Source of the DNA: a bacterium
Lineage (GTDB): Bacteria; Atribacterota; JS1; SB-45; 34-128
DNA length: 6,303 nucleotides
Direction of reading: 5' to 3'
NCBI GenBank assembly: GCA_018894595.1
Contig: JAHIPN010000393.1
Coordinates: 1-6,303 of the forward strand
Shown here: positions 272-5,943 of the stretch, one piece after another
How positions within the stretch are numbered: the stretch's first letter is position 1
How the letters are laid out: each line of letters opens with the position of its first letter
Program-made: the position numbers and the translations under genes
The notes under the pieces: model-generated
Database searches by the model: none
What the model saw: the letters and a program-made list of their open reading frames with translations, nothing else
What the model was told of the DNA's origin: nothing

Positions 272-1762
272 ATGAAAAGAAATATTTTTATTTTATTGAT
301 CGTAGCGAGTATTTTAATTATTTTTTCAACTTTGATTTTTGCTTCCGGGACCATTGATGAAAGCCTGCCTTCTCTTATAAAAAGAATCAAACCCTCTACG
401 GTGATTATTTTTACTTATGACGATAAAGGAGAATTTTTAAAACTGGGTAGTGGTTTTTTTATCAGTCAGAATGGTGATGTGATTACTAATTATCACGTAC
501 TTCAGGGAGCAAGCTCGGCCGAGATAAAGACCACCGATGAAAAAACTTATCCTATAACTTATATCGTAGCAGGAGATGAACAAAATGATATTATCCGTCT
601 TTCCGTAAATATTTCTTCTCAATATGTCTATCCTTTATCATTAAGCAAAAGAAGTCCAGAAGTAGGGGAAAGAATAATTGTGTATGGTAGTCCATTAGGA
701 CTAGAAAACACAGTCAGTGATGGAATCGTCTCTGCTATAAGAGATGTTCCTGATTACGGAAGGATTATTCAAATTACTGCTCCTATCTCACCGGGCTCCA
801 GTGGCAGCCCAGTCTTAAATATGCAGGGAGAAGTGATCGGAATAGCTACTTTTCAAATGGTAGAAGGGCAGAATTTAAATTTTGCCATTCCAAGTGAAAG
901 GATAGCAAACCTTAATTTAATGGAAGAAGAGAAAAGACTTATTACCACCGAAGAATCATTTGAACGGGAGAATAAAGAGAAAAAAGATTCCGACTATGTT
1001 TATGATGCTATTAGTAAAGCTTCATATTTTATAGATAAGAAAGAGTATGAGAAGGCATTACCTTATTTGGAGATAGCGATTAAAACGGATATATTATCAT
1101 TAAAATATTGGGCGTATTTTGGGATTGGATTCTGTTATGATGAATTAGGTAATTACGCTAAGGCAATAGAAGCATATAAACAGGCAATCCGCATTGATCC
1201 TGACTATGCTGATACCCACTACAATTTACACCACAATTTAGGTATTGATTATGGCAGCATAGGTAACTACACTAAAGCAATAGAATCTTTTAAACGGGCA
1301 ATCCGCATTGATCCTGACTATGCTGATAACTACTACGGCTTAGGCATTGCTTATTGTAAGCTTAGTTTCTATGAAGACGCGATAGAATCTTTTAAACAGG
1401 TAATCCGCATTGATCCTGATTATGCTGATGCCTACTACAATTTAGGCATTGTTTATGGCATTCTCGGTTTCTATAAAGACGCAATGGAATCTCTTAAACA
1501 GGCGATTAGTATTGAGCCTGATAATGCAAAAACCTACTCTTTTTTAGGTAGAGCTTATATTAGTTTAGACAACTACCCCGAAGCAATAGAATCTCTTAAG
1601 CAGGCAATCCGCATTGATCCTGATTATGCTGAAGCCCACATTTTACTAGGTGCTACGTATCTTATAATTGGAGATAGAAATTCAGCTTTAAATGAATATA
1701 AAATTCTTAAAGAATTAGACATTGATAAAGCTAATGAGTTATTTGATATGATTTATGAATAA
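272..1762 (+). CDS. Secreted HtrA-like serine protease with C-terminal TPR repeats
   Basis: Predicted exported endopeptidase of the trypsin/HtrA (S1C) type, 496 residues. Residues 1-25 form a hydrophobic signal peptide or anchor, with possible cleavage after IFA. The protease domain (about 30-215) shows a complete triad: His75 in ITNYHVLQG, Asp106 in QNDIIRL and Ser177 in SPGSSGSPV. No PDZ domain follows, unlike DegP/DegQ. After a charged linker (216-242), about seven TPR units run from 245 to 487, most of 34 residues, with the repeated signature AIRIDPDYA. One unit (314-351) is 38 residues long because NLHHNL carries a 4-codon duplication. The start is supported by AAGGGG at 259-264. The family role is envelope protein quality control or signalling. 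The TPRs probably bind a partner or present substrates; that and any specific target are inference. Confidence 0.9.
   Translation: MKRNIFILLIVASILIIFSTLIFASGTIDESLPSLIKRIKPSTVIIFTYDDKGEFLKLGSGFFISQNGDVITNYHVLQGASSAEIKTTDEKTYPITYIVAGDEQNDIIRLSVNISSQYVYPLSLSKRSPEVGERIIVYGSPLGLENTVSDGIVSAIRDVPDYGRIIQITAPISPGSSGSPVLNMQGEVIGIATFQMVEGQNLNFAIPSERIANLNLMEEEKRLITTEESFERENKEKKDSDYVYDAISKASYFIDKKEYEKALPYLEIAIKTDILSLKYWAYFGIGFCYDELGNYAKAIEAYKQAIRIDPDYADTHYNLHHNLGIDYGSIGNYTKAIESFKRAIRIDPDYADNYYGLGIAYCKLSFYEDAIESFKQVIRIDPDYADAYYNLGIVYGILGFYKDAMESLKQAISIEPDNAKTYSFLGRAYISLDNYPEAIESLKQAIRIDPDYAEAHILLGATYLIIGDRNSALNEYKILKELDIDKANELFDMIYE
1181..1634 (+). repeat. Near-identical TPR-coding repeats
   Basis: The segment encoding the end of each TPR, CGCATTGATCCTGA(C/T)TATGCTGA, occurs at about 1190, 1304, 1406 and 1610 almost unchanged, including at silent positions. 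The divergent unit at about 1508 (ISIEPDNA) interrupts the series. Such nucleotide-level identity suggests recent unit duplication or gene conversion within the TPR tract. The segment ACAATTTA occurs at 1221-1228 and again at 1233-1240, 12 nt apart, which explains the four extra residues in the third TPR. Confidence 0.75.
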
Positions 1763-3636: not shown

Positions 3637-3780
3637 TTTTCTTAAATAGAAGGCGTAGCAAGGCAATAGGCCGGTAACTTTTAGGTTGTCCTGGAAGAAA
3701 AGAGAAGAGAAATAATAAAAGAGTGGATTAAGGAAGGAAAGATAAAAAGATAAAGACCTATTAATAACTTATAGGAAGAT
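3628..3780 (+). repeat. Leader repeat, copy 4 (orphan, no lipoprotein gene follows)
   Basis: CCCATTTTCTTAAATA, GAAGGCGTAGCAAGGCAATA and the conserved frame (VLEEKRREIIKEWIKEGKIK, 3688-3753) are all present. Relative to copies 1 and 3, AGTCAATAGTCC has become AGGCAATAGGCC. After the stop, TAAAGACCTATTAATAACTT still resembles the copy 1 tail for about 30 nt, then similarity is lost. No Shine-Dalgarno site or signal-peptide gene follows, so its cargo gene is missing. Confidence 0.75.
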
Positions 3781-3962: not shown

Positions 3963-4934
3963 ATGCTATACAGAGAATTTCGATTAATTGGCGATACCTA
4001 TTATAAAAAGAGAGACCATAATATGATAAAAAATGAAACAGTGCCCACTATAATAAGCATTATGAATGAGCAAAATCAAGGTCAAGAAACCCGAAAAAGT
4101 ATCCTTGTCGAGTTAGAAAAAATATTAAAGAGACCCATTATTTCTTTCTTTACTAGTTTTCGTTTTCCCGTTATGATTGAAGATGCAGATGCAGATATAT
4201 TAGAAGGTCTTTTACAAAAAACAGATTTATCTAACGGACTAGCTGTGGTTGTGAGTTCTCCTGGTGGTTTTGGAATAACCGCTGAACGGATAATAAATAT
4301 TTTTCGTAATTATAGTGGAACAGGTGAATATTGGGCTATAGTCCCAAGTAAAGCAAAATCGGCTGCTACGATGATTTGTTTCGGCGCAAGTAAAATTATT
4401 ATGGGCGGAACATCAGAATTAGGTCCTATTGATCCGCAAATTGCTGTTTCTGAAAATGGCGTTACAAAGAGATTCTCATTGTGTAACCTTGTTGATAGCT
4501 ATGATGATTTATTTCAAAGGGCTATAAAAGAAGAGAATAACTTACAGCCATATCTACAACAATTAGCTAATTATGATGAAAGAGAGATAAAAGAGTTTAG
4601 GACTGCCATTTCCTTATCAGAAGATATTGCAACAAGAACTCTTAGCTCCGGCACAATGAAAGGAATGACTGATAAAGAAATAAAGAAAAAGATAGAAGTT
4701 TTTTTGACACCAAAAAAAACAAAATCACATGGGAGACCCATTTACGCAAAAGAAGCGTTATCTTGTGGCCTAAACATAGATCTAATAGACAAAAAAGAAA
4801 AAGTTTATGAGCTTTTTTGTGAGCTTTATATAAGAACAAATAATTTTGTATCAACAAGGGCTTCGAAGTGTATTGAAAATTCTCAGCATTCATTCGCTAC
4901 CCAAGCCCCAAGAAAAACAGGAGACAAAAAATGA
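3963..4934 (+). CDS. SDH-family (ClpP/SppA-fold) serine protease
   Basis: Predicted cytoplasmic protein of 323 residues with the ClpP/crotonase-like core of the SDH (serine dehydrogenase proteinase) family, related to SppA. VVVSSPGGFGITAERI (96-110) supplies the oxyanion-hole SPGG. IVPSKAKSAATMICFGASKI (126-145) carries the probable nucleophile Ser133. GGTSELGPIDPQI (148-160) is the family hallmark. His256 in SHGRPI is a candidate general base. No signal peptide or membrane segment is seen. The first 20 residues look dispensable: the ATG at 3963 has no Shine-Dalgarno site, whereas the in-frame ATG at 4023 follows AGAGAGA (4009-4015), so the true start may be 4023 (303 residues). Its stop overlaps the next start (ATGA), so the two genes form an operon. 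Substrate unknown. Confidence 0.85.
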   Translation: MLYREFRLIGDTYYKKRDHNMIKNETVPTIISIMNEQNQGQETRKSILVELEKILKRPIISFFTSFRFPVMIEDADADILEGLLQKTDLSNGLAVVVSSPGGFGITAERIINIFRNYSGTGEYWAIVPSKAKSAATMICFGASKIIMGGTSELGPIDPQIAVSENGVTKRFSLCNLVDSYDDLFQRAIKEENNLQPYLQQLANYDEREIKEFRTAISLSEDIATRTLSSGTMKGMTDKEIKKKIEVFLTPKKTKSHGRPIYAKEALSCGLNIDLIDKKEKVYELFCELYIRTNNFVSTRASKCIENSQHSFATQAPRKTGDKK

Positions 4935-5113
4935 AAAAAACAGTTAAATCAAACGAAAGACGCATAAAAGAGAAAGACGAGCGTTTTCTTAAAGCAAAAG
5001 AAAATTTTCTCAAAATGCAAAAAGAAATTGCACCATTCATAAAACGAAAACCTTTTAAGCAGCATTCAACTACTGGAAAATGGCGCGAAACAGAAAATCT
5101 ATATTTTATATAA
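4931..5113 (+). CDS. Small basic protein coupled to the SDH protease
   Basis: Sixty residues, very lysine-rich. Residues 1-33 (KSNERRIKEKDERFLKAKEN and on) should form a charged helix, possibly a coiled coil. The tail carries APFIKRKPFKQHSTTGKWRE, a compact motif that looks conserved in type, but I cannot name the family. Translation is well supported: AGGAGA (4919-4924) lies 6 nt before the ATG, and the ATG overlaps the protease stop codon. Coupling implies co-expression and perhaps a complex with the protease, as adaptor, inhibitor or substrate; that is inference. The gene ends 79 nt before the next promoter, and no terminator follows directly. Confidence 0.75.
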   Translation: MKKTVKSNERRIKEKDERFLKAKENFLKMQKEIAPFIKRKPFKQHSTTGKWRETENLYFI

Positions 5114-5192: not shown

Positions 5193-5221
5193 TTGACAAA
5201 CTATGCGGTATGTATTATATT
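5193..5221 (+). promoter_or_regulatory. Near-consensus sigma-70 promoter
   Basis: TTGACA (5193-5198), a spacer of exactly 17 bp and TATATT (5216-5221). It is the best promoter match in the window. The predicted start of transcription is near 5228, so the transcript begins with the two-hairpin RNA upstream of the NYN gene. Confidence 0.75.
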
Positions 5222-5227
5222 GATTAT

Positions 5228-5293
5228 AGATTTTAATAGACGACTCCCCGGCTATATGCCGGTTAGGCAGCTTATATGGCTGCCTTTTTTTTT
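5228..5293 (+). ncRNA. Short two-hairpin RNA upstream of the NYN nuclease gene
   Basis: The predicted transcript is about 65 nt. After an unstructured start (ending GACGACTCC), hairpin 1 is CCGGC-TATAT-GCCGG (5248-5262). Two bases later comes the terminator hairpin AGGCAGC-TTATATG-GCTGCCT (5265-5285), then nine T. Both loops contain the self-complementary AUAU, so a loop-loop contact or dimer contact is possible. No start codon with a Shine-Dalgarno site lies inside it. It could be an independent small RNA (antitoxin-like or guide-like) or an attenuating leader of the NYN gene. I cannot place it in a named family with certainty. The layout recalls type III antitoxin RNAs and the DUF3800- and abiF-associated RNA classes. 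Confidence 0.6.
5265..5293 (+). terminator. Intrinsic terminator just upstream of the NYN gene
   Basis: A 7-bp GC-rich stem, AGGCAGC (5265-5271) with GCTGCCT (5279-5285), has a 7-nt loop and runs straight into nine T (5285-5293). It lies between the promoter and the gene, 14 nt before the NYN start codon, so the gene can only be transcribed by read-through or anti-termination. Confidence 0.85.
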
Positions 5294-5307
5294 GGGGGGA
5301 TAATGCC

Positions 5308-5943
5308 ATGAAAAACAGAAGCATAATATATATTGATGGATTTAACCTATATTATGGTGCAGTTAAAAACACACCTTGGAAATGGTTAGACATGGAGAAA
5401 TATTTTTCATTTCTTCTTCCACATGATGATATACAAGAAATAAAATATTTTACTGCAAAAATACTTGGTTCGCATAAAGCAAATCAAGAAGCATATGTGA
5501 AAGCATTATCAACACTTAATAAAGTTCAAATTGTATACGGCTTGTTTAAATATAAAAAAATAAAATGCTTAGTAAAAAATTGTAACCATCAAGGTTCAAG
5601 ATTATTTAATGTTCCAGAGGAGAAAAGAACCGATGTGAATATCGCGATTCATATGATTAAAGATGCTATTGATGATAAATGTGATAGATTAATTGTTGTT
5701 AGCGGTGACTCTGATTTAGTCCCAGCAGTGAAAGCTGTAAAATTGATTGACCCAAACAAAAAAGTGATTGTTTATGTTCCCGCAAACAATAAGGTTCGTG
5801 GTGCAGCTAATGAATTAAGGAATTCTTCTGATAGACATAAAACATTACCAAATAATTTATTGTCGAAGGCTCAATTTTCAGATCAATTAACTGATTCAAC
5901 GGGTGGAATTATTCAAAAACCAGAGGCATGGTCAATGGGATGA
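5308..5943 (+). CDS. NYN-domain (LabA/DUF88-like) ribonuclease
   Basis: Predicted cytoplasmic metal-dependent RNase of the PIN-like NYN superfamily, 211 residues, apparently full length. The acidic site is intact: Asp10 with Asn13 in IYIDGFNLYYG, Asp109 in EEKRTDVNIAIHMI, and Asp134/Asp136 in VVSGDSDLVPAV. The strand KKVIVYVP (151-158) completes the fold. Cys87 and Cys92 (KCLVKNC), with nearby His94, may bind metal. The end (QFSDQLTD...GGIIQKPEAW) matches the usual C-terminal phrase of this family. The start is supported by GGGGGGA (5294-5300), 7 nt before the ATG. The gene sits directly behind a small structured RNA and its terminator, suggesting RNA-controlled expression or activity. The NYN family is known to cleave RNA; the target here is unknown. 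Confidence 0.85.
   Translation: MKNRSIIYIDGFNLYYGAVKNTPWKWLDMEKYFSFLLPHDDIQEIKYFTAKILGSHKANQEAYVKALSTLNKVQIVYGLFKYKKIKCLVKNCNHQGSRLFNVPEEKRTDVNIAIHMIKDAIDDKCDRLIVVSGDSDLVPAVKAVKLIDPNKKVIVYVPANNKVRGAANELRNSSDRHKTLPNNLLSKAQFSDQLTDSTGGIIQKPEAWSMG

Follow-up and report, generated by a model that had tools for sequence, protein, structure and literature searches.

Layout of the locus and the NYN protein

The window, by which we mean the whole analysed stretch of 6,303 nucleotides, carries in its last part a sigma-70-type promoter, a predicted small RNA of two hairpins, the second of which forms an intrinsic terminator, and the gene of an NYN-domain ribonuclease (Table 1). The promoter, the RNA, the terminator, and the NYN gene with its Shine-Dalgarno-like site all read as the first-pass annotation had claimed. 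The promoter is the best (11 of 12 matches) of the 32 promoter-like sites in the window, a number to be compared with 28.5 expected in shuffles. The RNA is composed of an unpaired 5′ ACGACUC, hairpin 1, a GGUU linker, and hairpin 2, with the loop of the latter being UUAUAUG in the window and CUAUAUG in most relatives; the segment 5232–5293 folds with −23.5 kcal/mol (z = −5.0). The terminator scan of the window gave 2 sites against 2.8 expected in shuffles and, having no excess, is by itself not evidence for the RNA, for which conservation is the evidence. A strong promoter and an RNA of about 65 nt had been described and are both present, but the conserved part, which begins with ACRACUCCCC, starts only at 5240. 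It is separated from the end of the −10 box by 19 nt in the window and often by 7–9 nt elsewhere, and the window RNA therefore probably has a short extra 5′ leader. Base pairing is possible between the GGGGGG that precedes the NYN gene and the CUCCCC in the window RNA.

Table 1. Positions of the features found in the window
Feature	Position	Strand	Basis
Sigma-70-type promoter of the RNA, TTGACA-17-TATATT	5193–5221	+	Sequence reading, promoter scan
−35 box TTGACA, followed by a 17-nt spacer	5193–5198	+	Direct reading
−10 box TATATT	5216–5221	+	Direct reading
Predicted small RNA, about 54–66 nt, ends predicted	5228–5293	+	Model R1, folding, covariation, column counts
Conserved core of model R1 within the RNA	5240–5292	+	Model R1
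Hairpin 1 (5 bp; arms 5248–5252/5258–5262), covarying stem, loop variable in length and sequence	5248–5262	+	Folding, covariation
Hairpin 2 (arms 5265–5272/5278–5285) with T run (5285–5293), intrinsic terminator and conserved covarying RNA domain	5265–5293	+	Terminator scan, folding, covariation
Shine-Dalgarno-like GGGGGG of the NYN gene	5294–5299	+	Sequence reading, pairing check
NYN-domain RNase gene, 211 aa (PF01936, PADLOC HEC-09); ATG at 5308, 211 codons, stop 5941–5943	5308–5943	+	ORF, Pfam, PADLOC, predicted structure
Trypsin-like protease fused to TPR repeats	272–1762		
ClpP-like SDH-type serine proteinase gene	3963–4934		PF01972, 5.6e-12
60-aa ORF after the proteinase gene	4931–5113		
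99-nt element, four dispersed copies	103–201, 1800–1898, 2783–2881, 3649–3747		

The NYN protein matches Pfam PF01936 with 54.0 bits (cut-off, 24.2; 3.5e-14) and no other Pfam domain at E up to 0.001. Its predicted model (mean pLDDT, 90) has VPA0982 (PDB ID: 2QIP) as the nearest solved fold, the sole PDB match below E 0.001 in the Foldseek search, in agreement with its earlier description as NYN and not ToxN-like. The protein also matches the PADLOC model HEC-09 over residues 3–209 (1.3e-50), as do all four NYN proteins given to that search (the window, L143, L135, and L142; E = 5.4e-25 or better). All 101 NYN homologues share, without exception, the residues D10, N13, E105, D109, D134, and D136, which are predicted to be catalytic, the window protein having both the Pfam NYN domain and the conserved acidic active site. 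A CRISPR-associated NYN ribonuclease from Bacteroides fragilis is reported to have a triad of conserved Asp residues and to lose its activity when the first of them is mutated (PMC11346440); D10, D109, and D134 are the probable equivalents of this triad. Homologues of the NYN protein are encoded on 432 plasmid records, with related genes on plasmids of Klebsiella, Xanthomonas, Escherichia, and others, and on plasmids of 3.5–5.3 kb the NYN gene is one of 3–6 annotated genes.

Conservation and covariation of the RNA

The protein search with the window NYN gave 3361 relatives, of which 120 are listed. A genome scan with the single window NYN as the query found no match, and the loci were obtained by scanning one genome per species with a profile, as the best 80 loci of 488 relatives. 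The same motif recurs repeatedly in the printed sequence upstream of NYN homologues. A covariance model (R1) was built from 47 aligned RNA copies, namely those of the window, a viral locus (L081), and 45 genome loci picked by the motif; the model itself then recovered L029, L033, and L037. Among the best 80 of 488 relatives, the R1 RNA adjoins the NYN gene in all 48 genome loci whose NYN is at least 48% identical to that of the window (class 1), with one match per locus at E up to 0.01. In the 99 sources searched at E up to 0.001, R1 also matches the viral locus and the window itself (71 bits; E = 6.6e-12 over 563 kb), the window being a training row. In the other 32 genome loci (NYN identity, 43% or less), R1 has no match at E up to 0.01, L044 giving 0.11. 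By record name, the 48 class-1 loci belong to about ten phyla, plus a few named only ‘bacterium’, and the records include Spirochaetes, Thermodesulfobacteriota, Acidobacteria, Planctomycetota, Bacteroidetes, Cyanobacteria, Truepera/Calidithermus, Bdellovibrionales, Gammaproteobacteria, and Chloroflexi. In a midpoint-rooted tree of 101 NYN proteins, the 47 with a class-1 RNA are monophyletic with moderate support (0.717).

In the 50 R1 matches, 9 of 12 pairs undergo two-sided changes and 93.8% of the cells pair, none of 500 shuffles attaining any of the five observed measures; the alignment is fitted to the model and hence favours the structure, and slid structures score far lower. The first-pass annotation had made its proposal of an RNA–nuclease pair depend on conservation or covariation of the two stems upstream of homologous NYN genes, and the proposal is well supported by the conservation and covariation found there. 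The unpaired stretches are conserved as well. The 5′ ACRACUCCCC is matched without deviation in 43 of the 49 tandem loci, and among the 50 rows A1, C2, and C9 occur in every one and most of ACRACUC in at least 48; the CUANAU of the loop and the GGUU linker are also highly conserved. Such conservation of unpaired residues is as expected if a protein recognizes them.

The surroundings of the RNA recur as well. In 38 of 48 class-1 loci, the 60 nt upstream of the RNA include a promoter-like site scoring at least 9/12, the mean best promoter score being 9.35 compared with 6.25 for shuffled flanks. Among the 49 tandem loci (the window and 48 others), the RNA has a T run of at least 4 at its 3′ end in 45 and is followed by an in-frame start in 46, the gap between them having a median of 9 nt (range, −4 to 83). 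Sequestration of the Shine-Dalgarno site was rejected as a conserved function, since its complement is present in only 3 of these 49 loci, and a guide RNA with a long variable part was rejected from the alignment of the 47 copies.

A known Rfam family was likewise rejected by Rfam 15 scans of the window and 20 other loci. No family reaches the gathering score in the window, where all ten matches at E up to 10 concern unrelated families; the abiF and DUF3800 models do not match the window even at that threshold, and the scan for abiF, DUF3800, and ToxI called for in the first-pass annotation gave no match there. In the 20 other loci, only RNAI and tRNA were found at the gathering score.

Placement and distribution of the RNA

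The position of the RNA relative to the NYN gene is not fixed. In L033, the class-1 RNA (R1, 68.6 bits) is upstream of the NYN gene on the opposite strand, pointing away from it. A second model (R2) was made from 11 RNAs (class 2) selected visually on the NYN strand upstream of distant NYN genes, and finds a convergent RNA just downstream of the NYN gene in 13 loci (L051, L052, L060, L061, L063, L066, L067, L071–L073, L075, the plasmid L138, and the prophage L148; E = 1.5e-12 to 3.5e-4), in which no RNA had been seen or assigned before the R2 search. The convergent RNA, on the opposite strand, has its 3′ end between −2 and +19 nt relative to the NYN stop codon, and the 12 of these 13 loci that are present in the NYN tree cluster together. 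The tandem upstream matches of R2 are the training loci, the near-copies L070 and L078, and L084. Tandem or convergent matches at E up to 1e-3 occur in 27 of 61 distant NYN loci, the one in L092 is placed differently, and 33 of the 61 have no R2 match at that threshold. In the R2 matches, including weak ones, 18 of 19 pairs change on both sides, which was attained in 0 of 500 shuffles. With the RNA inverted in L033 and convergent in 13 loci, a role as a leader cannot explain the convergent placement, and the RNA has the appearance of a gene of its own that acts in trans.

Further RNA-like elements were noted. In L092 (1893–1976), R2 matches the NYN strand at the NYN 3′ end (E = 5e-4), an arrangement seen nowhere else. 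Another RNA type is located just upstream of HEC-09-type NYN genes on plasmids of Klebsiella, Pseudomonas, and Thiothrix (L143, 3901–3977; L144, 3902–3977; L145, 2458–2534), starting with ACRACUCAACCCC or ACAACUCAUCCC and having a terminator hairpin; two of them were folded and gave z values of about −4.4 to −4.7. RNA-like hairpins were also found by eye, and partly folded, in L085–L089, L086/L095, L092/L094, L049 (E = 0.044 with R2 and 2.7 with R1), and L053.

Bacterial genomes were also searched for RNAs that stand apart from an NYN gene. In 36 genomes reached via the loci, R1 has 33 matches in 32 genomes, 32 of them at known loci; the remaining one is a second copy in G014 (L131), with no NYN gene within the 3.5 kb read. 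Among 785 genomes sampled from three phyla (294, 244, and 247; stricter filters), five were matched, namely three seeds and two new ones, in both of which the RNA adjoins an NYN gene (whole in L133, running off the contig end in L132). R1 thus has one match away from an NYN gene in these 821 genomes (36 plus 785), and the class-1 system, with two new cases in 785, is rare and sparsely distributed. R2 has 29 matches in 24 genomes, and 26 of these 29 loci encode a piece of NYN, some being cut by contig ends; class-2 RNAs with no NYN nearby are those in L325 (1501–1561), L330 (1501–1561), and L319 (1308–1365), which are possibly solitary antitoxins or remnants. A full RNA stands beside an NYN gene with an early in-frame stop in L047, and a second RNA beside an NYN fragment in L068/L070. 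By comparison, no class-1 NYN gene lacks the RNA (0 of 48), a lopsidedness that, in small numbers, is as an antitoxin would give.

The RNA was also found in phages. IMG/VR was scanned with three exact patterns, giving 30, 16, and 26 stretches. At E up to 0.012, R1 accepts 22 of the 30 matches of ACGACTCCCC, of which about 19 are distinct. It accepts none of the 16 matches of ACAACTCCCC, which serve as a chance control, and, for the third pattern, 2 of 25 further loci. Since an exact pattern fixes part of the motif, the R1 scores of the phage copies are inflated, including those of the best ones (67 bits for L171 and 64 bits for L161). The phage copies have the 5′ ACGACUCCCC in common with the NYN-bound RNA, and several also the CUAYAUG loop; many have no T run. 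In 27 distinct rows chosen from the matches, 10 of 12 pairs change on both sides, with 1 of 500 shuffles attaining the pair count and none the covariation score. No NYN gene was found in 20 phage records with the RNA (5–129 kb, possibly fragments), the only records matched in this search being the known NYN carriers L081 and L097 included in it. BLASTN of the RNA against INPHARED gave short partial matches only, none covering 80% of the query, and thus pointed to no named phage host.

In 12 of 16 cases, the phage RNA begins 0–32 nt past the stop codon of the longest preceding ORF; in L171, L149, L150, and L159, that ORF ends 115–363 nt before it. According to PHROGs, the gene downstream of the RNA in L171 is a head–tail adaptor and the ORF upstream in L159 a tail tube. 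PHROGs names neither of the genes flanking the RNA in L176, and ‘major tail protein’ is therefore a guess there. For one phage group, 80 relatives of the upstream gene were fetched without using the RNA; R1 matches 26 of them at E up to 0.1, starting 7–57 nt past the protein match in 24, and the pattern set had already included 8 of these 26 contigs. The other 54 have no R1 match at that threshold.

Relation to known systems and possible roles of the RNA

The locus resembles AbiF with its RNA (RCd22/AbiFr; Abi_2/HEPN, cited with the Rfam abiF motif RF03085) in having a promoter, a short structured RNA, an intrinsic terminator, a toxin gene without a promoter of its own, and an RNase as the toxin (PMC12373285); the AbiF RNA is reported to act both in cis and in trans through protein binding. 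AbiF is a HEPN protein, whereas the window protein is NYN; RCd22 has two motif copies in about 100–130 nt, compared with one unit of 54–66 nt and no Rfam match here, and, unlike in AbiF/RCd22, the RNA is convergent or inverted in some members of the NYN system. Type III toxin–antitoxin systems (ToxIN, CptIN, and TenpIN) have in common with the present loci an RNA partner of a predicted endoribonuclease and, in tandem loci, a terminator between the RNA and RNase genes, and phage mimicry of the RNA is described for them in the case of the pseudo-ToxI of PhiTE (PMC5449768). In contrast to these systems, the RNA here is a single unit, its placement is not fixed upstream, and the protein has an NYN/PIN-like fold instead of that of ToxN, CptN, or TenpN, as judged by Pfam and Foldseek. 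The repeat scan reported no direct repeat in the RNA region of the window, as the first-pass annotation had noted of tandem repeats, and a tandem-repeat type III antitoxin was rejected on this ground; with both the classical repeats and the toxin family missing, the locus falls outside the named type III families.

HEC-09, a candidate defence protein of PADLOC-DB 2.0.0, is the same protein family as the window NYN; its entry is the name of a protein model, with neither a description nor an RNA. HEC stands for Hma-embedded candidate (PMC12988326), and the literature search found HEC-09 by name in one paper, where it figures only as one of the systems correlated with phage susceptibility (PMC12447246). 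The B. fragilis NYN ribonuclease shares the fold and the nearest solved structure (VPA0982/2QIP) with the window protein; it is a CRISPR ancillary protein, for which the text consulted notes no RNA partner of the present kind (PMC11346440). A literature search whose coverage excluded bioRxiv and most subscription journals found, among the papers listed, no NYN protein paired with an RNA antitoxin.

Comparison of the loci shows the RNA to be a conserved structure tied to a clade of NYN genes, encoded in some loci as a separately oriented gene, with orphan copies in phages; its transcription, the binding and inhibition of NYN, the trigger, and the decoy function of the phage copies are what we infer. 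Together these suggest an undescribed pair of a toxin and an RNA antidote, or of phage defence. We consider it rather likely that the locus is type III-like, in that the NYN nuclease is held in check by a short, non-repeat RNA, which serves some phages as a decoy. A constitutive promoter would give the short two-hairpin RNA ending at its own terminator. At tandem loci, read-through past the terminator would supply the NYN mRNA, and the terminator would keep the RNA in excess, as is described for AbiF/RCd22 (PMC12373285); at convergent loci, the RNA would come from its own opposing unit. The earlier idea that the terminator sets the RNA-to-toxin ratio can accordingly hold for tandem loci and not elsewhere, where the RNA is transcribed towards the NYN gene from the other side. 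The folded RNA may expose the ACRACUC and the CUAYAUG loop, bind NYN, and block it, thereby holding it inactive in trans in the manner of a type III antitoxin made of a single non-repeat unit. Shortage of the RNA, for example upon phage shut-off of host transcription, would free NYN to cut RNA, resulting in growth arrest or abortive infection. The motif in the 3′ ends of phage genes could then be a decoy to which the nuclease stays bound, in the manner of the pseudo-ToxI of PhiTE (PMC5449768).

In favour of inhibition by the RNA we count its presence at all 48 class-1 loci, the covariation, the conserved unpaired stretches, the separate gene, the asymmetry between RNAs and NYN genes found alone, and the invariant residues, and further the HEC-09 match, the plasmid homologues, the sparse distribution, and the two precedents, AbiF/RCd22 (PMC12373285) and PhiTE (PMC5449768). 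Against it we count the distant NYN loci without an R2 match (33/61), the related phages without an R1 match (54/80), and the moderate support of the class-1 clade; the rarity of class 1 also makes a specific phage decoy puzzling. Of the roles proposed at first, namely that the RNA inhibits, is processed by, or guides the NYN protein, the data favour inhibition and speak against guiding, since free variation is limited to the short loop of hairpin 1.

Both the obligatory pairing and the conservation of unpaired residues would fit equally well if the RNA were an essential cofactor or sensor of an RNA–NYN effector complex, activating or aiming the nuclease instead of inhibiting it, and the independent orientation would fit any trans-acting partner. 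Variation is confined, however, to the hairpin 1 loop and the stem sequence, with no long variable guide, and the orphan phage RNAs without a detected NYN gene and the RNAs beside broken NYN genes are harder to explain by an RNA that arms the nuclease, which makes a cofactor rather unlikely. We find it improbable that the motif is a general RNA element of phages and plasmids with a role of its own (e.g., antitermination or 3′-end protection), captured by NYN genes and unrelated to them in phages. The phage copies follow phage genes, often without a T run and in only part of the related phages, and may be compared with antitermination elements, but the single R1 match away from NYN in 821 genomes and the 5′ sequence and loop shared with the NYN-bound RNA speak against such an element. 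Even less probable is an exclusively cis-acting leader, i.e., an attenuator of read-through into NYN, possibly with Shine-Dalgarno sequestration or NYN autoregulation; the terminator does precede NYN in the 49 tandem loci, and CUCCCC could pair with the Shine-Dalgarno site in the window, but the inverted and convergent RNAs, the orphan copies, and the scarcity of the Shine-Dalgarno complement run counter to it. A leader role may exist on top of the trans role. An ordinary terminator hairpin standing by chance before an unrelated gene would agree with the terminator scan, but is contradicted by the covariation test, the covariation of both stems, and the conservation of unpaired sequence over about ten phyla, and has next to no probability.

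Returning to an RNA that restrains the NYN nuclease, we put forward only tentatively the wider proposal of a new and widespread RNA-controlled defence, in which several classes of short single-unit RNAs would co-evolve with one NYN (HEC-09) family, from upstream, divergent, or convergent positions, and would be countered by phage-borne RNA anti-toxins in the 3′ ends of genes. If right, HEC-09, a model without a described mechanism, would become a two-part RNA–protein system, a PIN-like nuclease would join the toxins held by RNA antitoxins, and such antitoxins would need neither repeats nor co-transcription with the toxin; the RNA would also provide a seed for searching phage genomes for RNA-based counter-defence.

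Other features of the window were recorded. The proteinase gene is located upstream of the RNA–NYN locus, and the 60-aa ORF that follows it has no Pfam match. The TPR part of the trypsin-like protease gene is a 102-nt tandem DNA repeat. The four copies of the 99-nt element are 67–97% identical to the third; copies 2–4 follow genes or reading frames and copy 1 precedes the protease–TPR gene, and the element may be a repeat or a gene remnant.
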